Shown: positions 19,112 to 52,622 of the stretch, piece after piece
How the letters are laid out: each line of letters starts with the position of its first letter
Position numbering within the stretch: position 1 is the first letter of the stretch
Source of the DNA: Dactylellina haptotyla
Lineage: Eukaryota; Ascomycota; Orbiliomycetes; Orbiliales; Orbiliaceae
DNA length: 64,000 bases
Direction: 5' to 3'
NCBI GenBank assembly: GCA_031310005.1
Contig: JAQJAX010000011.1
Coordinates: forward strand, 124,001 to 188,000
Translations under genes and position numbers: made by a program
The notes under the pieces: model-generated
What the model was told of the DNA's origin: nothing
The model's input: only the letters and a program-made list of their open reading frames with translations
Database searches by the model: none

Positions 19112-19136
19112 AATAACAATAACGAAGGTTGAATAA
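19112..19136 (-). promoter_or_regulatory. Conserved 3' element
   Basis: A degenerate copy of the sense motif ATTCAACCTTTGTTGTTGTT, here ending AACCTTCGTTATTGTTATT in sense. It is downstream of the minus-strand ORFs at 19553-20208. Confidence 0.6.
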
Positions 19137-19552
19137 CAAAAGTTAAATAAAAACTAACTTAATAGTTTTTTTTACTATTTTATTATATATTATTCAAATA
19201 AATTTATGAGTTTCAAGCATAAATTTATTTACATAACATAGAATTTAATTCTATAACAAGATTGAATTATCTGTTATGCTTTAAATTAATAATTATTAAA
19301 ATATTACCTAAATTACGACTTATTTTAAAATAATTTAAAATTAATCTAATATTAAAATACTATTTTGATTTTTAATTATATTTAATAAATTTTATTCATA
19401 AACAATTATTTTAAGAATAAACTTCAGTTAGAAAAGGGAATAATATTAATTGATTATATAATATTATAAAATTTTATTTAATTTAGCATTATCTCAAAAT
19501 TAAAACTTAATAATTATTTTTTATTGTTAAAATTTTTATTTGTCATAGATAT

Positions 19553-19700
19553 TTATTTAGAATTAGGATTAGGGTTATTGTTAAAAAACTCTTGAGCTGA
19601 TGAATTATGTAGTGATCTTACTTGTAAAGTTACTTCAATTAGTATAGAACTTGGAGCTAGCTCTATATGGGTATTTAAGAGTATTTTAATTAAAATTATA
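19553..19700 (-). CDS. Small ORF fragment, paralogue of the 52-residue ORF
   Basis: The frame ends ...VRSLHNSSAQEFFNNNPNPN, then a TAA at 19553. This tail matches the 52-residue ORF at 23858-24016 (YENSSVQELFNQKPNPKPNE). No start codon is evident. The two also share downstream sequence (19110-19330 versus 23600-23830), so a whole gene-plus-3'-region unit was duplicated. The function is unknown. Confidence 0.45.
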
Positions 19701-19785
19701 ATTTATATTTATATTACTATTATCTTCGGTTAAATTGTATCAGATAAATCTAAGGAAGTTAAAATAAGATTTTTTATTTGTCTTT

Positions 19786-20208
19786 TTATGAAAAATTTGT
19801 TTTTAGACTTCAAGAATTACTATTAAATTTAGCTCTTAATTTATTTTTTTCGTCAGATCTTTTATACCCATATTTAGAAAATATAATTAAAACATCCCCA
19901 GCACTATAAGTAAATATGTTATTAAATTTATAATAATAATTATTTAAATTTAATTTAATAAAATAATTACTTAAAATTAAAATACTAAAACTAAATAATC
20001 CAATAAATAAATTAAAATTAAATAATTCAGGTAAAACAGGAAATATATTAAAGATTTGAATAAATCAGTTAGTAATTTGATTAAATATAACCAATAATAT
20101 TTTTATTTGTTCTTGGATATAACCCAAATAAGGTTCAATATTTACTAATATAAATATTAAAGAAGGTTTTATAATTTCAAAACAATATCCAGTTTTACCT
20201 CAAGATTT
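19786..20208 (-). CDS. Unknown hydrophobic protein, start not resolved
   Basis: An open frame of 141 codons under code 4 runs from just after a TAA at 20209 to a TAA at 19786. In-frame TGA codons are read as Trp. A central hydrophobic segment (LFIGLFSFSILILSNYFI) suggests one membrane span, preceded by another hydrophobic stretch (PSLIFILVNI). There is no ATG start, so it may be a fragment or use a non-AUG codon. No family is recognised. It lies between rns and the small paralogous ORF, on the edge of the accessory island. Confidence 0.4.
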
Positions 20209-23235: not shown

Positions 23236-23600
23236 TTTATTTTTTTTTTTATTAAAATGTATAGATTTTTATACTTTATTATATGATTTTTTATAAACAC
23301 ATAATTCTTATAATCACAAAATAAGAATTTAAATATATATAATAAATATAATATTATTATAAATTTATTTATTTTAAATAGTATAATTATTAAATTGTTT
23401 AAATATTTATACTTTGTGCTTGTGTTATATTTTAAAAATAAATTCTTATAATCACTAAATAAGAATTTTTATTATAATAAATTATTAATATATAATATTA
23501 AATATAATTTATTAATTTATTATTAGCAATATAATTATTTTAATGGGTGGCCAATTTATAAACTTAATTAAAATAAGTTTATAAATTGTTTATTTTGTTA
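23236..23600. other. AT-rich spacer 5' of rns
   Basis: No gene. It contains two copies of a TTCTTATAATCAC..AATAAGAATTT repeat (about 23305-23330 and 23443-23470). A long inverted repeat at 23551-23588 pairs AATTTATAAACTTA with TAAGTTTATAAATT, 3' of the 52-residue ORF. Confidence 0.5.
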
Positions 23601-23603
23601 TAG

Positions 23604-23626
23604 CAGAAACAACAAAAGGTTGAATA
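23604..23626 (-). promoter_or_regulatory. Conserved 3' element
   Basis: Sense strand (minus) reads ATTCAACCTTTTGTTGTTTC. It is downstream of the 52-residue ORF. Confidence 0.7.
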
Positions 23627-23651
23627 TGAAAATAATTTATTTTATTGTAAA

Positions 23652-23677
23652 AGAAGTAATCAACAAAAGGATCAATA
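23652..23677 (-). promoter_or_regulatory. Conserved 3' element, second copy
   Basis: Sense strand reads ATTGATCCTTTTGTTGATTA. It is a degenerate tandem partner of the copy at 23604. Confidence 0.6.
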
Positions 23678-23857
23678 TAAAAATAATTGTTTATTATAAT
23701 TTATATTATTTAAATAAATTTATGAGTACAAACATAAACTTATTTACATAACAGAATTGAATTCTCTGTTATGTTTAAATCAATAATTATTATATATTAC
23801 CTCAATAACAACTATTTTAAATTATATTAAAATAAATGTCTAACATTAAAGACTATC

Positions 23858-24016
23858 TTAATCTAATTTATCATAATAATCTTTATCAAACATTTTAAAT
23901 GCCTTAGATATTTCATTAGGTTTAGGATTAGGCTTCTGGTTAAATAATTCTTGAACTGATGAATTTTCATATCTTAATTGTGTAGTTACCGCAGATATAA
24001 TAGGAGTAGAAACCAT
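23858..24016 (-). CDS. 52-residue accessory ORF, unknown
   Basis: An ATG at 24016 opens 52 codons (MVSTPIISAVTTQLRYENSS) ending at TAA. The protein is polar and has no membrane segment or known motif. Its middle (NSSVQELFNQKPNPKP) recurs in the fragment at 19553-19700, so it belongs to a small family duplicated with its 3' region. It is followed by two copies of the conserved 3' element. It may be a plasmid-derived gene; the function is unknown. Confidence 0.5.
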   Translation of the reverse strand: MVSTPIISAVTTQLRYENSSVQELFNQKPNPKPNEISKAFKMFDKDYYDKLD

Positions 24017-24249
24017 TTTATTTCCTTTTTTTCCTTCCCGTAATGGGAGGGGACAAGTTCATTAGTTTTTTTTGAAGATTTTTATTTTATCCTAAATAGG
24101 GGATATACGACCTTGAATTTTCAAAGTTGCCTTTATTTTCTATATATATCATATTTTTATATTTTATTTATTAACTTTTGTTTCTTAGTTATATTTTAGT
24201 TTATCTAGTACTAAAATTATTATTTATCTCCCCTATCACTCTTTATTTT

Positions 24250-24270: not shown

Positions 24271-24281
24271 AAAAAAAAATT

Positions 24282-24896
24282 ATGGTTAATTTTGGTAAGA
24301 ACTGGAATAAACGTTATCCTTTTTCTAGTTCTTTTGGTTGCTCTTACTTTGCTATTAATAAATTTTTTAGACCTTTCTCTACTTCACTTTTTTTAAATAA
24401 TAATAGTAATAATTTAATTAATATTAATGGTAATTTAAATGAAGGTAATTTTAATATATCTTCTACTAAAGATAGTGAATCTGTTTATTCTATTTTTAAT
24501 AGTAATGTTTTTAAAAATAATGTGTTTAGATTTGTTTATAATAATTTAATTTATATTATTAATAATAATCCTATTAATAATAATACTCAAATTAAGATTG
24601 AAGAATTTCTTTTTAATCAATATAAGAATATAACAGATGAAAAAAATGATAATAAAATTTTTATTTCTGATGTTGATTTTAGTATATTTAATGTTAAATT
24701 TAAAGAATTTTGTCTTAATAAAGTTGATGAATTTAATTTACATTTAAATAAGCTTAGAATATCTTTAAATAACAATAATAAATATGAAAATTTTAATAAT
24801 TTTAAAAATAATAAATCTAATATTCATTATTTTTTTATTAAAGAGTTAAAAATAATAAATCTAATATTCATTATTTTTTTATTAAAGAGTTTTTAA
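24282..24896 (+). CDS. rpo: N-terminal part of mitochondrial plasmid-type RNA polymerase
   Basis: The ATG follows the shared upstream box. The N-terminus MVNFGKNWNKRYPF leads to the presequence-like KFFRPFSTSLF, then an Asn-rich region (NNNSNNLININGN). The frame ends at 24896 because of a 44-bp tandem duplication (24804-24847 and 24848-24891) that is not a multiple of three. The second copy continues into the catalytic frame. This would be the poorly conserved N-terminal domain of a single-subunit RNA polymerase. Whether the duplication is real or an assembly artefact decides whether the gene is active. Confidence 0.75.
   Translation: MVNFGKNWNKRYPFSSSFGCSYFAINKFFRPFSTSLFLNNNSNNLININGNLNEGNFNISSTKDSESVYSIFNSNVFKNNVFRFVYNNLIYIINNNPINNNTQIKIEEFLFNQYKNITDEKNDNKIFISDVDFSIFNVKFKEFCLNKVDEFNLHLNKLRISLNNNNKYENFNNFKNNKSNIHYFFIKELKIINLIFIIFLLKSF
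24804..24891 (+). repeat. 44-bp tandem duplication in the RNA polymerase gene
   Basis: Two direct copies (24804-24847 and 24848-24891) of a sequence beginning AAAAATAATAAATCTAATAT. The length is 2 modulo 3, so the reading frame shifts. Confidence 0.9.
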
Positions 24897-24928
24897 ATAA
24901 GTTAGATAATAAAGTTTTTATTAATCAT

Positions 24929-27247
24929 ATGTTTTATATTATATTTTTGGTTATAACATATAATGATATGGTTTTAGAAGATGATATTATTAAAAAAGAA
25001 GAAAAAACTAAAATAGGTCTTACTAAACTTAGTTTGATTTTAGGAAAAAGTATTACTAGAGAATATATCTCAAAATTATTTAAAGAATTTAAGAAAATTA
25101 ATTCAGAAACTAAATATAGTGAATTTAAATATAATTTATTAGAAAATGATAGTCAGAATATAATTATAACTAGTGAATTTTATTTAGAATTGGCTGGAAA
25201 ATTATTTGATATTATATTTTTTTGTAATATACTGGAAAGAAAGGTAAAAAAGATTGATGTTGATAGAGATTTAACTATTCTTAAATTAACAGAAGAAGTA
25301 GAAAAGTTAGTAGAAAAAAAAAATTCTTTAGCTGTATTACCTATTGATTTGCCTATGATAGTTGAACCTAAAGATTTTTCTAAATTTGAAATAGGTGGGT
25401 ATTTACTTAATGATGTAGAATATGATGATCGGTTAATAGGATCTAAATTAGGTTATAAAAATGAATCTATTATAGAAGATAATAATATAATTTATAACAC
25501 AGTCAATAATTTAATGAAAACCCCTTTTAAGGTTAATAAGGATTTATTAGATTATTTATTAAAAAATAATGAAATACATCAATTAATTATAAATTCTGAT
25601 TATGTTCATAAATTTTCTCTTTTAAAAAAAAGAACAAAAATTCAAGAAAAAGAATATCAACGTTTTTTAAGTAAGAACATGTTGGAAAAATATGTATTAT
25701 TAATAGCAGATCTTTTTTCTAATGTACCTGAGATTTTCTTTCCTTTAAAATTAGATCAAAGAGGTAGAATTTATCCTAAAACAAGTTTTTTTCATTATCA
25801 AGGTAGTGAATTAGCTAAAGCTTTAATTTTATTTGCTAGACCTGATATTATAAAAAGAAATGACTTTGAAGCTATAGAATATTTAAAAGCTTATGGTGCT
25901 TCTTGTTTTGGTAATGGATTAAATAGGAAATCTTATTCTAAGAGAGTAGAATGAGTTGATAAAAATTTAGATAAAATTATAAATTTTGATAGTAGTGACT
26001 TAGTATCTAAAGCAGATGAAAAATTTTTATTTTTAGCTTTTTGTTTTGAATTTAAAAGATTTAATATATTTTTAAATAATGAAAATATGGTGGATTTTAA
26101 AACTTATTTACCTATTCAGTTAGATGGAACTTGTAATGGTTTTCAACATTTAGCTTTATTATCCAATGAAACTGATCTTTATAAAAAATTGAATTTAGCT
26201 GAAAGTAATAAAAAGACAGATCCTATAGATTTTTATACCCATATTATAGATTTGTTAAATATTCATTTAGAATATAAAAAGAAAAACTGTGATTCTCAAA
26301 ATATTATAGATTCTATAGACAGGTTATTAAGTTTAGGTGTATCTAGAGCAATTATTAAGCCTGTAATTATGAATAAACCTTATAATGCTAGAAATAATAC
26401 TTTAAAAGGTTATATTAAAGAAACTTTAGTTAATGATCGTGTTGAAAAACAAATTGAATTAGATGAAAAAGGACAACAAGTATATAAAGATGGTAAAGCT
26501 AGTATTAAAAAGATTACTTGATATAAAAAAAATGAAAACTCTCTAAATTATGTTAATGATGATGATATAGATTTATTAGTTAAAAGTATAGAGGAAGAAT
26601 TATGTCTTAAATACCCTAAGATAAAGGAATTAACTGAATATTTTAAAAATATAGCTAAAATTTTTAATAAATTAAATTTACCTATTATATGAAGATTACC
26701 ACATGGTTTAATGATTAGTCAAGAGTATTTAGAAAAGCGTAGTATTAAAGTAAATCCTTTTACATATTCTTCTAGAACGTTAACTTTAACTATTGTAGAT
26801 AAAATTAAAATAGATAAAAATAAACAAGTTTCAGCTTTTATGCCTAATTTAGTTCATTCGTTAGATGCTGCATCTTTAACTTTACTTTATAATTCTTTTT
26901 ATAACACTATTAAAGAAGACATATGTAATAATGTTAATTTTTATAGTGTTCATGATTGCTATGGGGTTACAGCTAATTATGTAAATCTTTTAATTCATAT
27001 GTTGAGAAGTGTTTATATAGAAATATATTCAGGTAAAGGGTATATAGAAAAATTTGATGAAGATATAATAAATGATATTATTAAATCTCAAGGTGATGAT
27101 AAATGTGTATTTGATACTGTAAATAGAATTATTACTATTAATAAAAGAAAAAAAATAAAATTACCTGATTTATCGAATTTTCTTAATGTTTCTAATAAAG
27201 ATAGAGCTTATAAAAGCTTATCTAAATCAATATTTTTAATAAAATAG
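24929..27247 (+). CDS. rpo: Single-subunit (T7/kalilo-type) DNA-dependent RNA polymerase, catalytic part
   Basis: With TGA as Trp (three sites) the frame runs 773 codons; it is open upstream of this ATG into the duplicated segment. In order it shows LDQRGRIYP (the DxRGR motif), QLDGTCNGFQHLALL (motif A with the catalytic Asp), SRAIIKPVIMNKPYNA (motif B with R, K and Y) and PNLVHSLDAASL with YSVHDCYGV (motif C with the second catalytic Asp). All key catalytic residues are visible. Such polymerases are carried by linear mitochondrial plasmids (kalilo and maranhar type) and often persist as integrated copies. It would transcribe the plasmid's own genes. The only lesion seen is the upstream duplication. 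No family B DNA polymerase partner was found in the window. Confidence 0.92.
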
Positions 27248-27550
27248 ATTATTAAATAAAATTAGATAGTTGGTGTTTATTTTAAATCCATGTGAGTGTC
27301 TTAATATTAAATGATATATTAAATATAAAAATAATTAATTATATAACGATTACATTGTGATTATAATATACTTTTTTACTTTTTGTAATAAATTATATTT
27401 TGGTGGTGGTTGGTGGAGGTTGGTGGAAAATATTTATTTAAAATTTTATTAAATAATTGTTATAATTTATGATACATGGTCTTATCTGGTGGCCTTGTTT
27501 AGGTTTACGTTGGTTGTTATGTGGTTTATTTCAAGATAATTTGTGTAGTA
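27248..27550 (+). other. Spacer between RNA polymerase gene and orf307
   Basis: Contains a GT-rich patch (GGTGGTGGTTGGTGGAGGTT near 27402-27425) unlike the AT spacer around it. No clear copy of the conserved 3' element was seen here. Confidence 0.5.
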
Positions 27551-27570
27551 ACTAGTATTGTATTTAATAT
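27551..27570 (+). promoter_or_regulatory. Shared upstream box of orf307
   Basis: ACTAGTATTGTATTTA plus ATAT and an A run abut the ATG at 27579, matching the box 5' of the RNA polymerase gene. Confidence 0.65.
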
Positions 27571-27578
27571 AAAAAAAA

Positions 27579-28502
27579 ATGAAACAGAGTTATAAAAACT
27601 TTAATTTAATTAATTTTCCTACTTATTCTATGCATAAAAATAAAGATATTAATAATAAACCACGAAAAATTAACTCTAAAAATGGGTTATATTGTAAGTT
27701 AGGAATAAAAAAATGAGTTAGTCTTAATTTTAAAAACATAAATATAGATAACTATAAACCAAATATTTTATTTTTACAAAAGTATTTATGTATTTTTAGT
27801 AAAAATATTATTAGTTATCATTGAAATTTTCGTGTCTCGGAGAAGGATAACTTTTATAATAATTTATATTATTTTAAGTGTAATAATAACATTAAAAATA
27901 AGGATTATTATATATATTTAGTGAATACACCTGATAATTTCATTTTATCTTGTGTTGAAAATTTGATAGAACAATATTATCTTAAAACCACTGATAGTAC
28001 AAATTGACATTTATTTACAAAGCGAGGTCAAGAGTTTAAGTATGAATTACTATCTTTGTATTTAATGATAGGTGAAGAATTAGTAACAAATTTTTTAAAG
28101 TATAATTATACTTGTTATTTAAATAAAAATGATATAAGAATCATTTATTTTGATGGAAAACTTAATAAGGATGCTGTTACTACGGATCAAGAATTCTTAT
28201 CTTTTGTAGAGTTTAAAAAAAAATTAATTAAAACAAAGTTATATGATTTAGATACACATGATCTTATAGAATATGGACGTGACATATATTTATTTACAAT
28301 TTTTAATGAATATTTATTAAGATCTGTTAAGTTAAAAATAAAATTTAGTCAAGATAATAAACCAGTTAAAGATAATGCACTTATTGCTCAAAAATTACCT
28401 AAATTAAAAGAATTAGGTAATTTCTATCCATCTTATAACAGAATTAAGAAGCTCGTAAATAATTCTAGAAGTAAATGATTAGTAAAAAATAAAATCCTAT
28501 AA
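27579..28502 (+). CDS. orf307, unknown plasmid-type protein
   Basis: An ATG right after the shared box opens 307 codons under code 4 with several TGA Trp codons. The N-terminus MKQSYKNFNLINFPTYSMHK resembles that of the minus-strand ORF at 32662-33837 (MKNNFYNNLINFTAYSLHK), so the two share a leader or first domain. The rest is charged and Lys/Asn/Tyr-rich, without membrane spans. It contains SCVENLIEQYYLKTTDSTNW and LYDLDTHDLIEYGRDIYLF. No known family is recognised. Position, upstream box and downstream 3' element suggest it belongs to the same plasmid unit as the polymerase. Confidence 0.75.
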
Positions 28503-28607
28503 AATGATATATTAAAAATTTTTATAAATCATAAATTTTAATCAGAATATATTTTAAGTGAAAGATTTTAAGCATCTCAACCCAAAAGTAAATTTTTATT
28601 TTTGATT

Positions 28608-28634
28608 ATTCAACCTTAGTTGTTGTTCCTTTTT
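28608..28634 (+). promoter_or_regulatory. Conserved 3' element
   Basis: ATTCAACCTTAGTTGTTGTT then CCTTTT, 106 bases 3' of the orf307 stop, in sense orientation on the plus strand. Confidence 0.75.
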
Positions 28635-28669
28635 AAAAAATAACCTATTATTTTAGTTATTTTATAAAC

Positions 28670-28808
28670 GTGCTTAGTTCAAAGGTAGAATATTTCGTCT
28701 CATTAAATTATAATTTATGATAATCTATTGAATAGGACATCAACGCAGTATTAAACATGTGTTGATCGTATTTCGGTAATGATGTAAGGTTCAAGTCTTT
28801 ACAGCACA
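28670..28808 (+). tRNA. tRNA-like element with a large insert
   Basis: The 5' part GTGCTTAGTTCAAAGGTAGAAT looks like an acceptor and D arm, and the 3' part TAAGG-TTCAAGT-CTTTA plus CAGCACA like a T arm and acceptor (GTGCT with AGCAC). In between about 85 extra bases replace a normal anticodon arm, including a hairpin with ATCAACGC and GTGTTGAT. The anticodon cannot be assigned. It may be a split or intron-bearing tRNA, or a plasmid tRNA-like structure. All clear tRNAs in the window are on the other strand. Confidence 0.4.
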
Positions 28809-29117
28809 ACTTATTTAATATAAATTATATTAAATAATAAAAATTTAATCAAAATATTTCAAGTTTAACTTGACCAAGTCTTTAGAAACAAATAGGATTA
28901 AATAATTTTTAAACAAGAATAACTAAAGCAATTTTTAATAAAATATTTTATTAAAAGCTATCAAAAATTTTATAAAATATTTAATTCCAACTTTAATGTT
29001 TTAGATCAAAATAAATTATATTCAACTAAGACAAACAATACCAAAATAAATGAAAATAATAAAAATTCTTTAGGATGTATTTATTCTAAAGAATTTAATA
29101 ATAATGTAAAATTGTTA

Positions 29118-30710
29118 ATGGATAAATTTAGAAATAAAAATTGTAAACTTAAGTTTTATTCTAACCATATTTATGATTCTTATGATAAATATGAAAAAGA
29201 ATACATAATAGATAGAAGAACTATAATGGAAATAGATTTATCAACATATAAAAAAGATAATGATTTAAACTATAAACTTTTGATAGAAAAAATCCAAGAT
29301 AAGTTTTATTCAATAGAAGAATCTATTGAAAATGACTTTAGAAAAAATAACGCATTATATGAATATTATGAGGAAGAATATTATAACGATGACTTTGATT
29401 ATAGTGAAAGATTAGATTCTAATATTTTTATAGAGGTAATTGAATATAAAAATCCAGGTAATTCTTCAAAATTTATAGACAAAAAATATTATTCAACTTT
29501 TAGTCACTCTCGACGATTATTTTCTATTAATTCTTCATCAAATCAAAAAGACAATAAATCAGCAATAATTGATATAAATTATGATAAAAGCAAAATTTTA
29601 AAAATAATTAATAGTGTTAAAGATACAAATAATTTTATAATAGCATTTACACATAAATCCTGTCGTGCAAGTAACAAAGATAATAAATCATATGAAACAT
29701 TTGAATATTTAGGTGATACCTTAATAGGTAATTCCACTACTAAATTATTATTTATATCTTTTCCTAATTATAATGAGGGTGATTTAACTCAATTAAGAAG
29801 TTTAATAGTAGAAAACAAAAATCTTGGTAAAATAAGTAAAGAAATTGAATTAGATAAGTATTTAAAAATAGATAAAAATATAGAAATAACTACAAAAATA
29901 TTAGCAGACATTTATGAAGCTTTTTCAGCAGTCTTATATTTAGAAAAAGGTGAAGAAATATTACATGAATTTTTCTCTTTAACAATATTTAATAGACCTG
30001 AAACAAAAGATTTATTAAAAAATTATAAATTAAATAAACATTTCTCTATTATTTCTATGACTAATAATCCATCTAATCCACAAGAAATTAATATAAACCA
30101 AGAAAATTTATTTTCAAATTCATTAAGAGAAATAACATTAAAATTACCTGAAGATGATATTAACAAAAAATTATTAGTAACTTCAGAAAACCAAAGAGAT
30201 TTATTAAAAAATATCTACAATATATTAGAAGATGATATTAACAAAAAATTATTAGTAACTTCAGAAAACCAAAGAGATTTATTAAAAAATATCTACAATA
30301 TATTAGATAAAGCATTTCAAACAAATGATTTATTAAAAAATATCAACAATGTATTAGATAAAGCAATTCAAACAAATTCTAGTATTTTAAATAACATAAT
30401 AAAACAAACATCTACTATGATAAATAAAAGTCAAGAAATATTAAATATGTTTAAATCATTTGAAGAAAATAAAAAGGTTAGATATACTCAATTACAGATT
30501 GAAAACAAACAAAATAAAGAAAATATTAATAAACAATTTATTAACAATAATAATAATATAAAAGAATTAATTAATATTATAAAAGAATTAAATAATAATA
30601 ACATTAAATCTGAAATAATTAAATTAAATTCAAAATTAACTATAATAATCTTTATATTGTCACTAACTTCTATATTATTTTTTTTAATAATTAGTATATA
30701 TTTATTTTAG
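29118..30710 (+). CDS. RNase III-domain protein with coiled coil and C-terminal membrane anchor
   Basis: The first in-frame ATG is at 29118, but the frame is open from 28923. Its upstream reading (YQKFYKIFNSNFN) resembles the next module (FWNKFKNIFSNFN), so a non-AUG start near 28938 is possible. The RNase III domain lies about one third in: FIIAFTHKS, the signature ETFEYLGDTLIGN with the catalytic Glu and Asp, NYNEGDLTQLRSLIVENKNL, and ADIYEAFSAVLYLEKG with the second Asp and Glu. All expected catalytic residues are present. There is no double-stranded-RNA-binding domain. Instead a 26-residue tandem repeat (DDINKKLLVTSENQRDLLKN), a long coiled-coil-like segment and a C-terminal hydrophobic helix (IIIFILSLTSILFFLIISIY) follow. 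Presequence-like YYSTFSHSRRLFSINSS precedes the domain. It probably cleaves structured RNA near the inner membrane; the role is unproven. Confidence 0.88.
   Translation: MDKFRNKNCKLKFYSNHIYDSYDKYEKEYIIDRRTIMEIDLSTYKKDNDLNYKLLIEKIQDKFYSIEESIENDFRKNNALYEYYEEEYYNDDFDYSERLDSNIFIEVIEYKNPGNSSKFIDKKYYSTFSHSRRLFSINSSSNQKDNKSAIIDINYDKSKILKIINSVKDTNNFIIAFTHKSCRASNKDNKSYETFEYLGDTLIGNSTTKLLFISFPNYNEGDLTQLRSLIVENKNLGKISKEIELDKYLKIDKNIEITTKILADIYEAFSAVLYLEKGEEILHEFFSLTIFNRPETKDLLKNYKLNKHFSIISMTNNPSNPQEININQENLFSNSLREITLKLPEDDINKKLLVTSENQRDLLKNIYNILEDDINKKLLVTSENQRDLLKNIYNILDKAFQTNDLLKNINNVLDKAIQTNSSILNNIIKQTSTMINKSQEILNMFKSFEENKKVRYTQLQIENKQNKENINKQFINNNNNIKELINIIKELNNNNIKSEIIKLNSKLTIIIFILSLTSILFFLIISIYLF
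30150..30305 (+). repeat. 78-bp in-frame tandem duplication in the RNase III gene
   Basis: Two copies (30150-30227 and 30228-30305), seemingly identical, encode EDDINKKLLVTSENQRDLLK plus NIYNIL twice. A third degenerate DLLKNINNVLDKA follows. The length keeps the frame. Confidence 0.9.
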
Positions 30711-30758
30711 TTATTAAATCATCTCTATATACTATATTTCATATTTATTTTATTATTA

Positions 30759-30780
30759 ATTCAACCTTCGTTGTTGTTCC
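30759..30780 (+). promoter_or_regulatory. Conserved 3' element
   Basis: AATTCAACCTTCGTTGTTGT followed by TCC, 49 bases 3' of the RNase III gene stop, in sense orientation. Confidence 0.75.
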
Positions 30781-30827
30781 TGTTAAAAAATAATAACCAA
30801 ATTACTTTAATTAGTTGTTTTGTTTTG

Positions 30828-30868
30828 ACCCACTTATTTCTAACAAGCCATGTTGGATGTAGGTGGGT
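30828..30868 (+). terminator. Hairpin plus T run after the RNase III gene
   Basis: ACCCAC pairs with GTGGGT around an inner AACA/TGTT stem, followed by eight T. It looks like an intrinsic terminator or processing signal on the plus strand. Confidence 0.55.
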
Positions 30869-31008
30869 TTTTTTTATTATAAAATTGGAAACATATTAAT
30901 AATTTTATTTTTTTATCTTAACTTAAAATAAGATTAACTTAAGGTTAATAGAATAAAAAATTAATAATTAAATATAATTATTAGAAGAAATTATATAAAT
31001 TAAATTTC

Positions 31009-31077
31009 ACATGTTTAACTTAATGGTAGAGTATTTTAAGTTTTGTTAATATAAGTGTTGGTTTCCTTCAGCATGTA
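31009..31077 (+). tRNA. tRNA-like element heading the second module
   Basis: ACATGTT pairs with AGCATGT to give a good acceptor, followed by D stem ACTT/GAGT with AATGGTA. The anticodon arm does not close cleanly (possible loop TTTTGTT) and the T arm is imperfect. Its position matches the tRNA-like element 5' of the RNase III gene, and both are followed by TATTTCAAGT and CTTGACCAAGTCT. Confidence 0.4.
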
Positions 31078-31150
31078 CCCTTTTTTATTCGAAATATTTC
31101 AAGTATTTTCTTGACCAAGTCTATGTACATATTTTTAATAAAGAGTAGTC

Positions 31151-31786: not shown

Positions 31787-31871
31787 AATTATCTGGTATT
31801 TAATAAATTTATTATAATTTTAATTAAATTTAATTGTTTTTTTTTCTCATACTTTGTTTTATTAGACCTTT

Positions 31872-31898
31872 ATTTGACCTTTTGTTGTCATTCCTAAT
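31872..31898 (+). promoter_or_regulatory. Conserved 3' element, degenerate
   Basis: ATTTGACCTTTTGTTGTCAT then TCCTAA, just 3' of the second-module ORF, in sense orientation. Confidence 0.55.
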
Positions 31899-32214: not shown

Positions 32215-32240
32215 AAAAGGAACATCAACAAAGTATGAAT
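32215..32240 (-). promoter_or_regulatory. Conserved 3' element
   Basis: Sense (minus) ATTCATACTTTGTTGATGTT followed by CC and T's. First of two copies 3' of the ORF at 32662. Confidence 0.65.
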
Positions 32241-32256
32241 ACGAAAATAATTTATT

Positions 32257-32660: not shown

Positions 32661-32661
32661 A

Positions 32662-42016: not shown

Positions 42017-42242
42017 AAAATTTTATTTAAAATTAAAAGATTTACGAATCTACCGGAATAATCCTGCAGTTTATTGTAACACACATTCAGAAGAATAAGC
42101 TATTCAATTATATATAAGTCATATTTACAATTGTAAAACAAAATCAATAAAAACCTTAGATAACCCAAGCAGTTACTGCTATAAAGCTATAATAATAAAA
42201 ACAATAAAACAGCAACCAGGGCCGTGTCACAAAAAATATTCA

Positions 42243-42553: not shown

Positions 42554-42673
42554 TTATTAATCGAATCTTAAAACCCGATTATAAATAATAATATATAATT
42601 ATGGTATATTTATTCCACTAAAGCTTATTTTGTTTTTATTTATATATATTTTTATTAAAACACATATTTTATC

Positions 42674-43006
42674 TCAAAACTTTACATTTAATGGCCATAA
42701 AATAAATAACCCAAAAGGTAATATAATAAAAATTATATTTTGTATAATTATAATAAATAAATACAAAATGATAACTATTATTAATTTTAATAACTTTATA
42801 ACGTAATTGTGTATTAATTCTTTATTTAATATTCTTATAATAAAAATCCAAGGTATCATCACTATACTAAATCGTATAAAATTATTAAATGTTAAATTTC
42901 CAATTTTATACTCTATTAATAATAATAAATCATATCTAAAAAAATAAATTAAACACCATATAAAGATATAATAGCCAAAAGGTTTATTTAACAAATTTCG
43001 TAACAT
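42674..43006 (-). CDS. orf110, orphan membrane protein behind a copied atp8 leader
   Basis: 110 codons (MLRNLLNKPFGYYIFIWCLI), overall very hydrophobic with about three membrane segments (YYIFIWCLIYFF; FIRFSIVMIPWIFIIRIL; IIVIILYLFIIIIQNIIFII). No family is recognised. Its ATG lies 14 bases after a 65-bp copy of the atp8 leader, and it precedes atp8 on the same strand. The leader may give it atp8-like expression. Recombination-born ORFs with borrowed atp8 leaders are known from plant mitochondria, but a similar effect here is only inference. Confidence 0.6.
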   Translation of the reverse strand: MLRNLLNKPFGYYIFIWCLIYFFRYDLLLLIEYKIGNLTFNNFIRFSIVMIPWIFIIRILNKELIHNYVIKLLKLIIVIILYLFIIIIQNIIFIILPFGLFILWPLNVKF

Positions 43007-43084: not shown

Positions 43085-43538
43085 AAAATGGAATTTTAAT
43101 ATAAAAAAATATTCTCTTCTATTCGCTAAATTTAAAAATTACTAATTAAAAGGTTTATTTATTAAAAATTAAAATATATACATTTTTGAACAATAAAATA
43201 TACGGGAATTCTTAAAAAGTAAAATTGTCTATATGCATATTCAGTCGGCCGTAGGACCCATTAATAAAATAACAACAAATATCGAATAGGAGAATTAAAT
43301 TTTTTATATTTAAACTAATATAAAATTATAAATTGCCTGTTGATGCTGTACTTCTGATCAAAGATTTCGGCCTTGACGTTTAGCCCTGGCAAGAGAAGTA
43401 TCAATTATTAGATATAACCTAAAATAAGGTAAAAGGAACGTTATTCACATCAGTTAAGTGTCCTATATATCACTTAGACTTTAGATAGATATTACAACGT
43501 TTCCTTCTTGCGAGTGACGTAGGCAAGTTATTAAATCT

Positions 43539-43569
43539 ATACCTGGAACATTTAAATTTTCAGGTTTAT
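43539..43569 (-). repeat. 31-bp direct repeat, distal copy
   Basis: Near-identical to 43795-43825. In this copy the frame continues past KPENLNVPGI into DLITCLRHSQEGN. The conserved 3' element lies between the copies. Confidence 0.75.
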
Positions 43570-43594
43570 AGCTAATAACGATTGATATATAACT

Positions 43595-43620
43595 AAAGGA
43601 ACTTCAACAAAGGAAGAATA
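43595..43620 (-). promoter_or_regulatory. Conserved 3' element downstream of cox2 and orf129
   Basis: Sense ATTCTTCCTTTGTTGAAGTT then CCTTT. A degenerate copy in sense orientation. Confidence 0.65.
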
Positions 43621-43790
43621 AAAACAAAAATTTTTATTTGATATTTTATTTACCAAAGAATTTTTTATAACAAATAGGAAACAATTGAAAAATATATATC
43701 ATGTAAATATTATAAAATAATAGAAAAAACAAAAATATAAACTAATTAAGCAAAAACACTAACAAAATAAGAATTTTTTACATAGTTTAT

Positions 43791-44180
43791 TTATATACCT
43801 GGAACATTTAATTTTTCAGGTTTATGGAAGTAATGTATTATATCTTTTATATAATCTAATCCATACAATGTTTTTATTACATCAGTATTAGACATAATAA
43901 TTCTATTAACAACCAAAGAATTAGGTTGTTTAATTAAAGAATTATTAGGTAAAGTATTATATTTAATTAATACATTTTTTTCAAGTTTTGTTAAAAAATC
44001 ATTAGTTGTAACATAAGTTCTAGTTGTTACTTTACGGGATATGAAATACGAATTAGTACATTTATTACAAATAAGACTATTAAACAAAGTACAAACTATT
44101 GTTCGTTTAGTCAAGTTAGGAATTTTTCTATTGAAACTGATTGAATTACAATTGGCATAGAACTGTGAAGGATACCACAT
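43791..44180 (-). CDS. orf129, unknown, overlaps the cox2 3' end
   Basis: A frame of 129 codons whose first third overlaps the end of cox2 in another phase; a start inside (after 44095) is more likely. The non-overlapping part reads RTIVCTLFNSLICNK, KVTTRTYVTTNDFLTKLEKN and SNTDVIKTLYGLDYIKDIIH, ending KPEKLNVPGI. The terminal 31 bp recur at 43539 with a longer continuation. It therefore looks like a gene truncated by an insertion that brought in the 3' element. No family is recognised. Confidence 0.4.
   Translation of the reverse strand: MWYPSQFYANCNSISFNRKIPNLTKRTIVCTLFNSLICNKCTNSYFISRKVTTRTYVTTNDFLTKLEKNVLIKYNTLPNNSLIKQPNSLVVNRIIMSNTDVIKTLYGLDYIKDIIHYFHKPEKLNVPGI
43795..43825 (-). repeat. 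31-bp direct repeat, proximal copy
   Basis: ACCTGGAACATTTAATTTTT with flanks; see 43539-43569. Confidence 0.75.
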
Positions 44181-47100
44181 ATCTCACTACATTGACCATA
44201 GAAAACCCCTTCTCTGTTTACAAGAGTAGAACATTGATTAAGTCTTCCAGGATAAGCATCAAGTTTAAGGGCTAACGCTGGTACGGCAAAGGAATGTATA
44301 ACGTCAGCGGCTGTGATAATGAAACGAATATGAGTTAATTCTGGAACTATTACACGATTATCTACTTCAAGCATTCTTAAAGCACCATCTTCTAAATCTT
44401 CTTCTGGTACTATATAAGAATCATATTCTATGTTTTCATTATCATCATTTACGAAATCCACGTATTGGTAGCTTCAGTATCATTGATGCAAGAATTTGTA
44501 TATTCTCACCGATTGTACATTAAGCATAAATTTATTAATTAAAATAATTTACACCCACAAATGACCCAATCTGTGGCAGTATTTTATTACTGACAATCTT
44601 GTATTATTATTTAAGCAATATAAATAATAATATTTAATTGTTTGCATTTGCATCGCCAAAGAAATATAAATATTTCTTAAAGAATCCTGTCGGAAACTTA
44701 GAGATAAATAAATTAATATAATTCATTATATACTTTTATATATATAATAATAAAATATAACTATTTAAATCACGACTATCGTTAATATTAAAAAAATGTT
44801 AAGACTAAATTTTACATTAGTTTATAAGCCTAACTTGTAATACATTGATGAATGTAAATAAGGTAAAATAAGATTTCGCAAGGATGGCACAGATGAACTT
44901 TTTATGTAAAGAGAATATTGGCCAATAGTTTCTATTTTTTGAATAGTACAGTCTAGATTATATTTTCTTTTGAATATTTCAGCTAAAAGTTGTACTTCTT
45001 CTAGTTTAAAATTATTTGTAGCTATTCTTACCCCAGATTTAGTTCAACCTCCATCATCCATTATAAATATTGCTAATGCTAATGGAGTTATATATTTTTC
45101 TATATTTGGACTTATTACTTTTTTACCCTTTTTATAAAACATTTGATGTAATCAGTTAAAACTTCTGAATGTAAAAGTGTTAAATTCATATCCAAAATAA
45201 TTTTTTTGTTCTCCTTTTTTTATTGTTCTAGTGTACATTCTAGGTTCTAAGTTTGAACAGTAACCTCTAGTATAGAAAAATTCATACAATCAAAATAAAT
45301 AATCTTTATGAACTATACTTTGTCTATAACAAAGTCTTGTACCTTCTACAGATCTTTTATTAGCATATCCATCTCCTAGTAATGAGCCCACTATAACTGA
45401 TATAACATCTTCACTATGGGGCCCTATACGATTACCAGCTCTTACCCTAGTATGGAAATTAGAAATTTTACTTTGTATAGACATAATATTTTTATTTTTA
45501 CATGTTACTAATGAAAAAACTAAATTAATCTTTTCAATATAATTTAATATAAACGATTTGGGGCCATCTAAAAGACCCTCAGCAAGAATAGACATAGCAG
45601 GATCGGCAACTTCATCCATAAGGTATAAAAGTTTGAATGATGGGAATGCGATTAAAATTAAAATAATAGCGGGAGTGATTGTTCATATTAGTTCGATAAC
45701 TGTCGATTTTAGACTTTTTTTTTTATTCGGGTTTATATATTTTCTTGACATTATTTTTAACATATTGATTCAACTGATTATTAATTTATTTAACTGAAAA
45801 TTTATACTTATTTTTAAATATTTGACCAGATTTTATATACTTCATAATTGTACTTCCACTAGCTCCTAAAAATTTTCCTGCTCTTCTGGCTGAAGTAAAA
45901 TTCCCTATGAGTTTAAAATTCTCTTTATCTAACTTTTCATATATATTAACGGAAGTTCCATACTTAGAGCTCATTAATAATTTAGTTTCTTCAGAGAATT
46001 TTCTACCTAAAGCTTTTTGTTTAATTAATTCTTTAGTTTTTTCACTATGTATTTTACCAAATAAATTATTCTTTTCTCCTAATTTTTTTTGACTCATAAG
46101 CTTTTTAGTTTGCTCACTCAACTTATTTCCATATCAGTAAGAATTTTCTCCTTTATACACTCCTTTTAAAGCTTTACTAATTTTATCCTTAATCTCTTCA
46201 GAACGAATTAATACTAATGAAGAACCAGCTATTTTTTCAATATTATAAACAGGATTTAAGTTATCAAAATAATATTGTTCTCTAACAGTTAAATCAACTT
46301 TATCACAATACTCTAAAATAGTTAAAGAAAAATAAGAATAATCGTATTTAATAAGAGCTCTACTAATTATATATTTTGATCTTTTAAGGTAAGCAGTATT
46401 AAAATAATTTAAAAATCTGTTATAAAGGTTTTTAGATTGTCCTATATAAAAATCTTTAGTTACTTTATTAGTAAGCATGTATATTCCTGGTTTACCTTTA
46501 TTGTCATTTAATATTTTTTTTTTTTAATGATGCATATTAAGATAAACTATCATCTCTTTATTTTTATCTAAAGGATTGTTAATTTTAATAATTTCAGTCT
46601 CGGCGTCCGCCTCCTTGTTGGATAATACCTTAATTAAAATATCATCGCGAAGCGATGGCAAATTACTATAATGCCTTGAAAACATAAGTGAGTTTATAAC
46701 GAATAAATTTCGTCCCATCGAAGAAAACAAATTTGTCTGATAAATATATATATTAAAAAATATATATTTTGGACTATCTCTTTATTCATCAAGTTTCACT
46801 CGATGAAACGATCACACGCATAGTCTCTGAGGATTCATTGAGTAACCTCAATGTTTTACCTGCTGATTACATTTTTGTTTAACAAATGCTTCCCAGCATA
46901 TGGTGAATTTATACGAAAATATTTTAGTAATTATCAATTAAATATCGATAAATAAATATTTATTTTTAAATATTTTACGCAGGCACTTTGTTATACCATG
47001 ATTTAAATATTTGTGTGAGATAGGTGATCTTTTATTAGAATAATTTCTAATTACAGATGCTAACACTCAACCTACACCAAATAAAATTGTAACTAGATAA

Positions 47101-48561: not shown

Positions 48562-49153
48562 TTTTAAAGTTTATTATATTTTAGTTAAGTTAATTATTTA
48601 CACTAATTTTTTTATTTCATCCGGGCACGATGATACATAGTGAGCTGTAAGCTATAGTATTAGATAAGAATAATCTTAAGAGTAAAAGTTTTAAGCTATT
48701 TTTTTTTCTATTGGCAATCTTTAAACTAAACAATTAGGGAGATAATAAATAATGCTCATTTTATTAATTAAAAGTGAGTATGCACTATGAAGTAATTTTA
48801 AATTAATTAAAATTTACATCAGGAACAATAACTAAGATTGAATAATAACAAAAAAGATTGAATTATTATAAAGAATTTTAATAACTAAAAAATATTTATT
48901 TTTTTATTTAAGATGACAATGCTTAAAGTGTCGCGTGACTGCTAAGCTAGTGCAGCAGCGTTATTACGGGGAGGGGGAACGCAGCTTGCTGCGGCCTTGT
49001 CGCTATAAAACTAGGAAAAAAAATAATCTTAAAAGTTAATCAGATTTTAGTATATTTTAATTATTAGTAATTTTAGAAATAAATAATTAGTAAATATTCA
49101 TAATATTAATTAAAAATGAGTATATACTATTATTTATATTTTTTCATTTAGTT
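48562..49153. other. Spacer between orf272 and cox2 with GC cluster
   Basis: 48918-49008 is a GC-rich cluster with GCAGCAGCG and ACGCAGCTTGCTGCGG, able to fold as nested stems, inside very AT-rich sequence. The conserved 3' element lies at 48821-48845. No ORF. Confidence 0.55.
48821..48845 (-). promoter_or_regulatory. Conserved 3' element downstream of orf272
   Basis: Sense ATTCAATCTTAGTTATTGTT then CCT. A half copy (ATTCAATCTTTTTTGT) follows at 48848-48863. Confidence 0.6.
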
Positions 49154-49972
49154 TTATTCATTATTATCATTATTATTTGATTTATTTATTTTATTTATCT
49201 TATTTCTTTTTTTATTTATTTCATCAATTGCCTCCTCTATATAATTTTCAGTTTCTGCTAAGTATACGCCATGTATAATCTCTTTATTGTTATTATTATT
49301 ATTTTTTTTCATAATTTCAATATCACAATTTGTATCTTCTACTCTTTTAATTATAAGATCTACTATTTTATTATGATCTTTTTTAATTTTTCTTAATTCT
49401 TCAGAATCTTCATGATTTAAAAAATATTTTTTAGTTATATTCCCTTTAAGAATTTCTTTTGTATTACTTTCCGTAAGAAATTCAACATCAAGCGATGTTT
49501 TTTTTGTAAATTCACTGTCAGAAGGTTTATCTTTTATAGGTCAAGCATAATTACTATCCTTTAAATCGTAATCCTTAGACTCTGTGGATACTTCGCTTGA
49601 ATCGTCATCATCAGGTTCTATCAATTCATTATCGTCTGAATCGTCATCATCAGGTTCTGCCATATAAACTTCAGAATGGATAGATTTATCAGATTCATTA
49701 TCACTATAAAAATTATCATTAGATTCTTCCGAGAAAGAAATTATTAATAAAAAAATAAATAAAATAATATAAGATAAAAGCGTATAGTATGCTCTATAAA
49801 ATTTTGAAGTTGATTGTTTTTTTTGTTTTTGTTTATAAATTTTAATAATAATTAAAATTAAACTTGTAGTAATACCAAATAAGAATAAGAGAAATAATAA
49901 ATTATTATATAAATAATATATTTGTATTGTAATGTAAGGATAAAAATAGTTCATTAAGTTATGTATAATCAT
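49154..49972 (-). CDS. orf272, orphan membrane protein with acidic repeats
   Basis: Its ATG (49972) overlaps the end of nad6 by 14 bases in another frame. 272 residues with one TGA Trp. Two membrane helices near the N-terminus (LLFLLFLFGITTSLILIIIK and LLSYIILFIFLLIISF) precede an acidic stretch with a repeated AEPDDDDSDDNELIEPDDDD, and a Lys/Glu/Asn-rich C-terminus in which VYLAETENYIEEAID echoes VYMAEPDDD. No known family is recognised. The overlap suggests co-transcription and coupled translation with nad6. The acidic tail might bind a basic partner or metal; that is speculation. Confidence 0.7.
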
Positions 49973-51968
49973 TTATAATTTTATTTTGACTTAATCTAGA
50001 GTTTGTAAAAAGTAAAAATGATGCTGTTTTATGTCCTAGTGTTATTATAATAGCTCCAATCATAGCAAGTAAAAGAATGATTGAAGTTATTCATAATCAC
50101 ATAGCATGACTAGTATATAAAATATTCATGACATACACAGAATTTTAATTCTGTTTTATCAGATTTATCTATTAATATAAAATTTAATTATTTATTATTA
50201 ATGGTAGTTTATTTTTCAAATTTTATTTAATCATTCTAAATATGAGATTTGTTTATTATTTATTAAATGACTTGCTAAACTCTTAAATTTATTTATATCT
50301 TTTCATATTCATACCTGCTTTAATATTTATTATTTTTTCCAATCCTTCTTTTGTTCTATGGCCTTTATCTTTCATTATAGAAGCTATTTTACAAAAATTA
50401 GAAAAGTCTAAAGCTTTATTATCATACACAAGATACTTTTTGAATAATGGAATTATTTTTTCAGTTAAGTCATTAAATTTTGTAATTTTAAAATAACCTG
50501 CAGTTTGATTACAATTAATGTAAAATTTTCCACAACCTAAATATTGTACTAACTTTTGTATTAATTATATATCTTTGTAGTGTTAAGTTATTACAAAACT
50601 CAATTTAATAGCTTGCTCCGATCCAGGGAACGGATTGAATATTTATAAATATCTATAAAAACACCCTTCAGCGTTAACGAAAATTTAACTACAGGTTTTA
50701 ATATTTGAGTAAATTTAGGAAATAATTTTTAATTCATCTGATAAACCTAAATTAAATAACACTTTAAGATTAACAATTTTTTATACTCCAAAAAAAGTTT
50801 ATTCTTTATTTTTAATCAAATAAAAGACTTTTTTGAAAAGTTCATAATCTGCCCGTTTTTGAGTTATTAATGAATATTTATCGAAATGATATATTATTAA
50901 CTGTAATTTACTATTACAGTTTGAATTTTATATTGAATATAATTTGATCCAAGTTTATATAATTTTCCAATACCTAAATAATTTTTAATATTTTCTAATA
51001 TTACTTTATCTTTTTCATGTAAACCTATAACAAAACCTAGTATAATTATTCAACCAATTTTCATATATTTTGTTTTATAGATATTAATAATAAAGCATCC
51101 CTCTTTCTCAGTAAACCAGTTAAAAATAGAGAGTTAATAAAATTATTGTTTAATAAGGACCAGTTTGAAATAATTTTTTTTGTATATTAAATTTATTAAA
51201 AAGGATTCTGAATTGATATTTATTTACATAAATCATTAGAACATATCTTAAATGTAATAAGTTATTACAATAATTATCATTTATTCGTTGCTCTTTTACA
51301 ATCGTATTATTTTTAGCATATGTTGATTTAGATACGTGGTATTTCATTTTAGTTTCCACTATCTTTTGATTTATTACCTTATCTGGTTTTTTAGTTCAGT
51401 CACTTACAATTTTTAAATTGTAGATAGGTATCAAAAGCTTTAGAAAGTTCCCGTAATTAGATAATTATAGGCACAATAGTGATTTCCTTAATCACTTAGT
51501 ACCTATAGCCGTCATTTCATTTAATGCTCCCATGTTACTATCTCATTTATCATAGCTACTATGAAAAACACTTTTATATCAAGAAGAATCTTTTATAGTA
51601 AAATTTAAATTTAATGTTATAGTTGAATAAATAATAGCAGAAACAATTAGACCTAAAAACAAACTATTATAATTATCAGAATGTAACTCAGAAATTCTAA
51701 TATTAATTAGCATCAAAGTAAAAAGGAATAATATAGAAACTGCCGAGATATACACTAAAATATAAGATAATCCTATAAAAGACATACCTATTAATAATAA
51801 ATAGCCAGAGATTACTAAAAATAAGAGAATTAGATATAATACAGCTATAATAGGATTTCTAGCTATAATAACAAAAATACCTAATATTATACTAATTACA
51901 CTAATTATGCTTAATCAAATAATTGAATAACCATTAGTATATATTTCTGAATAAATAGCATATAGCAT
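49959..51968 (-). CDS. nad6: NADH dehydrogenase subunit 6, two exons
   Basis: Exon 1 (about 51498-51968) contains [40 protein letters not shown] and [19 protein letters not shown] and ends ...LNEMTAIGT. Exon 2 (49959-50135) reads [20 protein letters not shown], then [16 protein letters not shown], to TAA. Together about 215 residues, normal for this complex I membrane subunit. The frame is also open to an earlier ATG at 52106, which would add 46 residues. The chosen ATG fits family length better. The exon 1 end is set to within a codon. Confidence 0.9.
50136..51497 (-). mobile_element. Group I intron of nad6 with dead LAGLIDADG ORF
   Basis: The core-type element GAAATACCACGTATCTAAAT and GTAAAAGAGCAACGAATAAA lie at 51290-51345. 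The rest (50240-51270) is a decayed LAGLIDADG gene: fragments such as [21 protein letters not shown] survive between many stops. Confidence 0.8.
50240..51270 (-). pseudogene. Decayed LAGLIDADG gene in nad6 intron
   Basis: Recognisable segments on the minus strand include [20 protein letters not shown] and a degraded N-terminal half. Frequent stops and frame changes show it no longer encodes a protein. Confidence 0.7.
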
Positions 51969-52106
51969 ATTATTAAAATTAATGGATAAAGCCAAGTTAC
52001 TTAAAGAGATTATAGATAAGGAAAAAGTACCTGGTACAGTTATAATTAAAATTTTATGTTCGCTCTTAAAAAAAGATATAAAGAAAAATAAGTTTATATA
52101 AACCAT

Positions 52107-52599
52107 AAATCTTACTAATTTAATTGCCTATAATTTAATAAATTATATATTTTTAAATAAAAATATATTTATAAATATACGTAAAAATTATAGATTGGGA
52201 TAAAAAAAAATAGAGGCCGCCTAAAAAGGCGGCCAATGATACGTCGCACGTGACGCATCTTAACGATAGGTTTATATTTGTTATAAAATTTATAATTTAT
52301 AAATTATTTTTGAAACCTAGTCATTTTTAGATTAGCTATAAAAATTATAATATTTAATTAAAATAATTATTATAATAAAGTTAATATATATATTAACTTT
52401 ATAATTATTTAAATATTAAAAAATAAAATATATCATATTAATTTTTTTTTAATAATCCTTATTATAATTTAAATTTAAATAATAAAATATTTAATTTAAA
52501 ATTTATTTAAATTATTAAAATTGATTTAAAACAACCACAGCGGCTTTCACCATTGTAAAAGTGATTTAAAATAAAAAAATTATATTAATAAATATATTA
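52107..52599. other. Spacer with GC hairpins 5' of nad6
   Basis: No ORF. GGCCGCCTAAAAAGGCGGCC at 52215-52234 is a perfect stem followed on the minus strand by a T run; an imperfect palindrome GATACGTCGCACGTGACGCA is at 52238-52259. Confidence 0.6.
52215..52234 (-). terminator. GC hairpin with T run, downstream of nad5
   Basis: An 8-bp stem GGCCGCCT/AGGCGGCC. In minus orientation CTATTTTTTTTT follows. It lies beyond the 3' element at 52600, so it may end the nad4L-nad5 transcript. Confidence 0.55.
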
Positions 52600-52622
52600 G
52601 GAACAACAACAAAGGTTGAATA
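52600..52622 (-). promoter_or_regulatory. Conserved 3' element downstream of nad5
   Basis: Sense ATTCAACCTTTGTTGTTGTT then CC: the consensus copy. Confidence 0.75.

Follow-up and report, generated by a model that had tools for sequence, protein, structure and literature searches.

The yeast mitochondrial dodecamer has the consensus AAUAAYAUUCUU, with the cut made 2 nt downstream of it, and a yeast intron protein reportedly requires processing at this motif, as the title of a 1989 article by Zhu et al. has it. In the accessible portions of the papers cited here, the dodecamer is said to direct cleavage, to protect mRNA ends and to occur also after the open reading frame (ORF) of the omega intron (PMC3797045), and the pentatricopeptide repeat (PPR) protein Rmd9 is said to bind it and to block mtEXO, at least in vitro (PMC9181182). 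In Hypocreales, the processing of some polycistronic transcripts is said to be signalled primarily by tRNAs, and transcription termination in fungal mitochondria is described as not known (PMC8979003). Both tRNA punctuation and GC-rich hairpins are indicated in Candida (C.) albicans (PMC4618339), and in octocoral mitochondria stem-loops together with an 11-bp motif were proposed to serve processing where tRNAs are lacking (PMC5474008). The formation of mRNA 3' ends away from tRNAs is poorly known in the mitochondria of filamentous fungi. Here, we describe a candidate 3'-end element, a hairpin of ~24 nt that recurs in the mitogenome of the orbiliomycete Dactylellina (D.) haptotyla. It was noticed in a stretch of 64,000 nucleotides, referred to below as the window, i.e., positions 124,001 to 188,000 of contig JAQJAX010000011.1 (assembly GCA_031310005.1). 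Coordinates are given in window numbering, continued round the circular mitogenome of which the window is a part.

The element is written ATT-abcd-CT(T)nnGTT-d'c'b'a'-TTCCT, i.e., in RNA form AUU-[4-bp stem]-CU(U)nnGUU-[4-bp stem]-UUCCU. A covariance model (R1) was built from eight window sites and used to search the whole mitogenome on both strands. This search returned 15 sites at expectation values (E) of at most 1.1e-4, 11 in the window and four outside, while the next match (E 0.023) falls in atp6 coding sequence. Outside the window the model was run on 10-kb pieces, where copies spanning a boundary could be missed; scans of the joined circle with a weight matrix and a hidden Markov model returned further copies outside the window and otherwise no more strong ones. 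All 12 coordinates named in the initial annotation carry an element within ~6 nt, 11 of them individually significant at the above E and one, at 23652, weak. The scan of the complete mitogenome, which that annotation had proposed, added copies after nad1, cox1 and rps3, beyond the part first inspected. All 15 copies have ATT and the CT..GTT loop frame, ten have TTCC, and the element is AT-rich (GC 0.19-0.31). The loop is either 7 or 8 nt long; the copies at 23604, 23652, 31872 and 40046 looked like weaker matches because their loop is the longer one. The initial annotation had recognized neither the stem-loop nor its two loop lengths. The copies, and two features that adjoin them, are as follows.

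19109-19134, minus strand: element, E 8.6e-9; stem CAAC/ATTG (three of four pairs); TTAT replaces TTCC; a hairpin and T run follow; 652 nt past orf140 and ~420 nt past orf49 (19553)
23599-23625, minus strand: element, E 1.1e-4; 8-nt loop; stem CAAC/GTTT (three of four pairs); 233 nt past orf67, 5' of rns
23649-23679, minus strand: weak second copy; stem GATC/GATT with one G-U pair; E 0.58, 0.24 without filters, 0.01 with model R2
28608-28633, plus strand: element, E 7.9e-11; stem CAAC/GTTG; 106 nt past orf307
30759-30784, plus strand: element, E 6.8e-10; stem CAAC/GTTG; 49 nt past the RNase III ORF
30829-30867, plus strand: GC-rich hairpin then T run, ~45 nt downstream of the 30759 element
31872-31898, plus strand: element, E 1.9e-5; 8-nt loop; compensated stem TGAC/GTCA; 86 nt past orf214 (by subtraction)
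32215-32240, minus strand: element, E 7.9e-10; stem CATA/GATG (three of four pairs); in tandem with the 32256 copy; 422 nt past orf280
32256-32281, minus strand: element, E 2.2e-10; compensated stem CATC/GATG; 381 nt past orf280
40045-40071, minus strand: element, E 8.1e-8; stem CAAC/GTTG, 8-nt loop; 467 nt past nad4, before trnH
43594-43619, minus strand: element, E 9.4e-10; doubly compensated stem CTTC/GAAG; 172 nt past orf129 (cox2)
48818-48843, minus strand: element, E 3.0e-10; compensated stem CAAT/ATTG; 311 nt past orf272
48844-48863, minus strand: degenerate partial copy adjoining the 48818 copy; three mismatches, no clear 4-bp stem; absent from the covariance-model list and excluded from all stem and structure counts
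52596-52621, minus strand: element, E 3.6e-11; consensus stem CAAC/GTTG; 888 nt past nad5, 596 nt before nad6
99207, outside the window, sense: element, 592 nt past the rps3 region
107498, outside the window, sense: element, 59 nt past the cox1 stop
124202-124227, outside the window, minus strand: element in cox1 intron 1, ~600 nt past a LAGLIDADG endonuclease ORF
129801, outside the window, sense: element, 256 nt past the nad1 stop

The four stem positions vary between copies while remaining paired (CAAC/GTTG, CATC/GATG, CTTC/GAAG, CTAC/GTAG, CAAT/ATTG, TGAC/GTCA, and CGAC/GTTG with one G-U pair). In an ungapped alignment of eight sequences the covariation score was 0.482 compared to 0.135 after shuffling (reached in 0 of 500 shuffles), with changes on both sides at three of the four pairs (12 of 500). 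An alignment of 15 sequences, which was fitted to the model and hence is biased towards it, and which excludes the sites at 129663 and 23651, gave a covariation score of 0.500 versus 0.148 (0 of 500 shuffles); 58 of its 60 cells are paired, each of the four pairs has changed on both sides (2 of 500), and there are six further pair types (11 of 500). RNAalifold returned the same four pairs from this alignment. A rival register, shifted 3 nt inwards, is 86% paired and shows no both-sided change. With arms listed by hand for 17 sites, now including 129663 and 23651, 64 of 68 cells are paired and 13 stems are complete; this number of paired cells was reached in none of 200,000 permutations of whole arms. 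In the homologous spacers after orf280 and orf67 the second copies differ at their third pair, a compensated swap, and the weak copy at 23652 is backed by its alignment to the copy at 32257 in the homologous spacer.

Because the stem covaries, pairing appears to be under selection, and since the stem is free to change as long as it pairs while the loop frame is fixed, the element is not explained by a site recognized in double-stranded DNA. Beyond positions -4 to +5, conservation is seen only in a T-rich upstream stretch, which reaches 0.59 at -9, and in the single columns +11 and +26 (0.53); for comparison, 99% of null columns have an information content below 0.49. A longer dispersed repeat was considered and rejected as the main account, as the flanks are hardly conserved, although some spacers do have part of their ancestry in common. 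Judged from these alignments, selection acts on a hairpin of ~24 nt whose loop frame is constant and whose stem may vary but stays paired.

Chance and low complexity do not account for the copies. Patterns of rising flank stringency matched 13, 10 and 9 times compared to null means of 0.28, 0.07 and 0.017 (60 third-order Markov shuffles; maxima 2, 1 and 1), with zero matches in the reversed sequence. A 20-mer at up to three mismatches had eight matches in the window where 0.01 is expected, one of them being the 48844 copy, which the initial annotation had not listed. A search blind to the loop sequence (ATT, four Watson-Crick pairs around any loop of 4-10 nt, TTCC) found 12 distinct places, and because it mostly returned the CT..GTT loop (8 of 12), the copies were taken to be one family. 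In a comparison with 4227 Rfam families at the gathering score, only rRNA, tRNA and group I introns matched, none of them at an element. Exact patterns were listed in the mitochondrial contig only of this genome, an observation of little weight since the nuclear chance expectation is estimated at below one. Pattern scans elsewhere gave 0, 17 and 1 stretches in the viral_contigs collection and 21 in genome_contigs; with complementary arms at both tested positions in only 3 of 38 (17 viral_contigs plus 21 genome_contigs stretches), these were dismissed as chance. Protein-led searches of viral_contigs with the RNase III, RNA polymerase and nad4 products confirmed no relative.

Degenerate candidates at 75161-75187, 137972 (E 0.08), 129654 (E 0.52) and 23648 (E 0.58) were kept out of the counts; the first, in the spacer between cox3 and cob, has three of four pairs, and a hairpin with a T run lies ~32 nt further on. 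The atp6 match noted above (96920-96952, minus strand) encodes IQAYVFVI near the C-terminus of ATP6, at E 0.023 with R1 and 5.5e-5 with R2. It was treated as a coding coincidence, yet it ranks 16th with R2, so that R2 alone would keep it; these codons are possibly a source of such elements.

The orientation of the copies follows that of the genes, as had been claimed: minus-strand copies follow minus-strand ORFs, and the three plus-strand copies follow plus-strand orf307, RNase III and orf214. All 15 copies are in sense orientation and 14 are intergenic, while 33.6% of all bases are intergenic (binomial p 2.4e-6; counted as clusters, 13 of 14, p 6.7e-6); gene spans, introns included, cover 66% of the bases and hold a single copy. 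The many antisense or non-3' copies that would point to a simple dispersed repeat were thus not observed (0 of 15 antisense, one of 15 not intergenic). The 14 copies lie at a median of 346 nt from the upstream stop, compared to 1,307 nt for random intergenic positions given the strand (p 0.0015); in this comparison orf214 was missing from the gene list, and the 31872 copy was thus entered as 1,162 nt. The 3' regions of rRNAs, tRNAs and atp9 are without an element, in agreement with the initial annotation, and a match at 35340 near atp9 is at chance level.

That most protein-coding clusters are followed by an element is a fair description at the level of clusters. Gene by gene, it holds for only 13 of 23 protein ORFs (a tally that excludes intron ORFs and unassigned ORFs, e.g., 42599-43006, which is without an element) and for six of 15 standard genes, i.e., nad1, cox1, rps3, nad5, cox2 and nad4. 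Only a tRNA is found between nad3 and cox3, both a tRNA and an element after nad1, cox1 and nad4, and neither in the spacers cox3-cob, cob-nad4L and atp6-nad2. Some of the genes for which the element is not the next feature may share a longer transcript.

Based on the sense orientation, the places 3' of genes, the sharing by unrelated genes and the absence after rRNAs and tRNAs, we infer a role at mRNA 3' ends. The element would be an RNA hairpin held by a protein, which defines or protects these ends, and to this reading we assign a probability of about 0.6. The protein would read the shape of the hairpin as well as its loop and flanks, where a transcription unit ends or slightly further downstream, and the bound hairpin would either direct a cut or halt 3'-to-5' trimming by the mitochondrial degradosome. 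The outcome would be stable mRNA 3' ends where a tRNA does not provide them, and the genes of an integrated plasmid-like block (see below) would use the same 3'-end machinery. In cox1 intron 1 the copy may give the intron endonuclease ORF an mRNA end of its own, just as the omega-intron ORF of yeast gets one from the dodecamer; by this analogy the intron copy fits the yeast precedent rather than contradicting a 3'-end role. The element makes the question of 3' ends directly testable, as it offers fifteen predicted ends, a defined RNA ligand with which to look for the protein that binds it, and controls in the form of paired stem mutations. If functional on the plasmid-like genes, it would show how such genes join the RNA metabolism of the host.

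Several observations weigh against a protein-held 3'-end hairpin. The stem is weak: folded alone, seven of eight elements have energies of -0.7 to -2.3 kcal/mol and one +1.2 kcal/mol, the inner register with a 4-nt loop is energetically preferred in both canonical CAAC/GTTG elements that were tested, and in 160-nt segments the stem is part of the minimum-energy fold at only two of 17 sites (31873 and 32262), with a mean stem pairing probability of at most 0.14 at the other 15. As far as the alignments tell, the support for the stem is covariation, not energy, and it is because of this weakness that a partner, most simply a protein, is needed, i.e., the partner is assumed. TTCC is missing in five of 15 copies, and since the copies partly share ancestry (the 23.6- and 32.2-kb spacers) the 15 are not fully independent. 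As to placement, the element is not the next feature after ten of the 23 protein ORFs (atp6, nad2, nad3, cox3, cob, nad4L, nad6, atp8, atp9 and the RNA polymerase gene), the distance from stop to element spans 49 to 888 nt, four copies (nad5-nad6, rps3-atp6, orf272-cox2 and nad4-trnH) have the next gene closer by than the upstream stop, and one copy is located within a cox1 intron.

The element could instead make a mitochondrial RNA polymerase of the phage type, nuclear or mtDNA-encoded, pause or terminate, acting on the nascent RNA or via a bound factor. Its sense orientation at the ends of units would suit this function, and phage-type polymerase genes (PF00940) are present in both the nuclear genome and the mitogenome. 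The initial annotation had reported a hairpin and T run after at least four sites; by the criteria used here, a GC-rich hairpin with a T run further on is clear at two of 12 window sites, 30759 and 19112, the latter visible in a fold and absent from the scan that listed the former, while the hairpins at 23604 and 32215 lack a T run. A 4-bp stem of +1.2 to -2.3 kcal/mol with no U run of its own is too weak for intrinsic termination, which would call for a stable, GC-rich hairpin running straight into a stretch of U, a combination that the element does not show, and several copies lie between closely spaced genes. We consider termination at the element unlikely.

A second alternative is that the element controls translation or stability from within a 3' untranslated region, or the 5' untranslated region of the next gene, without setting the RNA end. 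The wide range of stop distances would be accommodated in this manner, as would the four copies that are nearer to the next gene. In contrast, the copies of cox1, nad1, cox2 and orf280 are found 59, 256, 172 and 381 nt past the stop, where the next listed gene on the same strand is 1,527, 2,161, 1,122 and 8,195 nt away, respectively, which makes control of this kind distinctly improbable.

The number of dispersed copies (15), the tandem pairs at 23.6 and 32.2 kb and the intron copy would also be expected of a small mobile hairpin repeat, akin to the double-hairpin elements and GC clusters of fungal mitochondria, that came to sit in spacers by chance. However, such repeats are GC-rich and inserted regardless of gene direction, whereas the element has a single 4-bp stem in an AT-rich unit and is always in sense orientation. 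Furthermore, the flanks have hardly anything in common beyond -4 to +5, only one copy is found in the two-thirds of the mitogenome taken up by gene spans and introns, and the compensated stems imply long maintenance. The probability of a mobile repeat is accordingly small.

The 78-bp stretch around the intron copy at 124202 is 78% like that at the nad5 copy (52.6 kb), which suggests that the copy in cox1 intron 1 is a transposed piece of spacer. In our own reading by eye it sits in the P8 region, between P7-like strands; Rfam did not find the intron core in cox1 intron 1.

The plus-strand copies belong to a block at 24282-31898 that holds the ORFs below, three of which (orf307, RNase III and orf214) have one element each.

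24929-27247, plus strand: phage-type RNA polymerase gene (PF00940), which heads the block; no element
27579-28502, plus strand: orf307, no family matched; upstream of the 28608 element
29112-30710, plus strand: RNase III-domain ORF (PF14622, PF00636); upstream of the 30759 element
31142-31786, plus strand: orf214; upstream of the 31872 element

The first organism-named relatives of the RNA polymerase, among the best 120 of 158 relatives, are from Gibberella intermedia and Claviceps purpurea (47%). The Claviceps protein is that of a linear mitochondrial plasmid, and it is on account of this origin that the block is called plasmid-like. The RNase III ORF has a hydrophobic stretch at its C-terminus (by eye). 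Cleavage of the element by this mtDNA-encoded RNase III can be set aside as very improbable, for even if the ORF keeps the catalytic-motif residues (by eye), has Drosha-type Ribonuclease 3 as its best PDB matches and is followed by an element 49 nt past its own stop, a dependence of standard genes on a protein with seven relatives above the cut-off among 7,999 scored candidates would be odd, and known RNase III substrates are far longer than a 4-bp stem.

Other features of the mitogenome were noted. The assembly comprises 39.8 Mb in 11 contigs, and the contig that holds the window (249,811 bases) is a head-to-tail repeat of the mitogenome with a period of 140,719 bases; the published D. haptotyla mitogenome has 146,101 bp (PMC7801010). 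When 150,000 bases and the window were compared, the overlaps of the contig were identical save for 1,102 positions, all in its first 1.8 kb, and this start is still 99.6% alignable to its overlap, with small gaps. Pfam and tblastn searches placed the standard genes, and Rfam and ARAGORN the RNAs. The minus strand carries almost all genes, including nad4, upstream of the 40045 element.

40538-42022, minus strand: nad4 (PF00361), 99% identity to a D. haptotyla protein

At 43481-44186 (minus strand) the KPEKLNVPGI that ends orf129 reappears as KPENLNVPGI just 3' of the 43594 element, as if the tail of cox2 had been partly duplicated around it. The 3' exon region of cox3 is partly repeated (79650-80258 and 76308-76909, minus strand; 612 aligned bases, 87%), and two stretches (79380-79327 and 77991-77947) encode the last residues of cox3, YYWGS. 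The small ORFs at 19553-19702 and 23858-24061 (minus strand), each with an element 3' of it, have in common a stretch NSSxQE(F/L)FNxxPNPxx, and pieces of their regions are 74-76% alike.

The animal histone mRNA 3' stem-loop is a short conserved hairpin that sets the 3' end of an mRNA via a protein that reads the loop and flanks. It differs from the D. haptotyla element in having a 6-bp stem and a 4-nt loop, and in being nuclear and restricted to a single gene class; no sequence relation is claimed. With the Saccharomyces dodecamer the element shares the sense orientation in mRNA 3' regions, a variable distance to the stop, the use by many genes and the occurrence also after an intron ORF, as far as the accessible text describes them (PMC3797045). 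On the other hand, the sequences are unrelated, and a covarying hairpin is found here as opposed to a PPR-bound sequence motif in yeast, i.e., by sequence comparison the element is structured and is not a member of the dodecamer family. Matches to the dodecamer consensus number four in the mitogenome on both strands (103324, 108461, 117197 and 138419; expected 1.8, maximum 6 in 30 shuffles), and none adjoins an element. Of the initial interpretation, a sense 3' element common to standard and plasmid-like genes is retained, whereas the analogy to a linear, dodecamer-type motif is not, since the stem covaries; for this reason, and with the dodecamer consensus at chance level, binding by a PPR protein is not favored as the best test. 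No such hairpin appeared in the open-access titles and abstract beginnings among the matches listed, a scope that leaves subscription literature aside, nor is one mentioned in the accessible part of a comparison of nematode-trapping-fungus mitogenomes (PMC7174627) or in the D. haptotyla mitogenome note (PMC7801010).

Within the accessible portions of the sources, the fission yeast C-core is likewise a short motif that serves mRNA 3'-end maturation (PMC4618339), but it is a C-rich stretch, while the element has isolated CC pairs only and, in addition, a stem. The TAAATT motif of Hypocreales (Beauveria, Metarhizium) was also proposed as an mRNA 3' motif at variable downstream distance, in filamentous ascomycetes, yet it is 6 nt long and AT-only, with no structure described in that part of the text (PMC8979003). 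The GC-rich hairpins and double-hairpin elements of C. albicans are spacer hairpins as well, some of them at the ends of transcription units (PMC4618339), but they are variable in sequence, whereas the copies of the element form one AT-rich family whose loop frame does not vary. Processing at stem-loops in octocoral mitochondria offers an animal parallel (PMC5474008). Tentatively, and with the odds slightly against so general a statement, the mRNA ends of orbiliomycete mitochondria may be set by a structured hairpin that a protein reads, a 3'-end signal of a class distinct from the linear dodecamer, the C-core and tRNA punctuation; the plasmid-like block would share this signal with its host as a single host-parasite 3'-end code.

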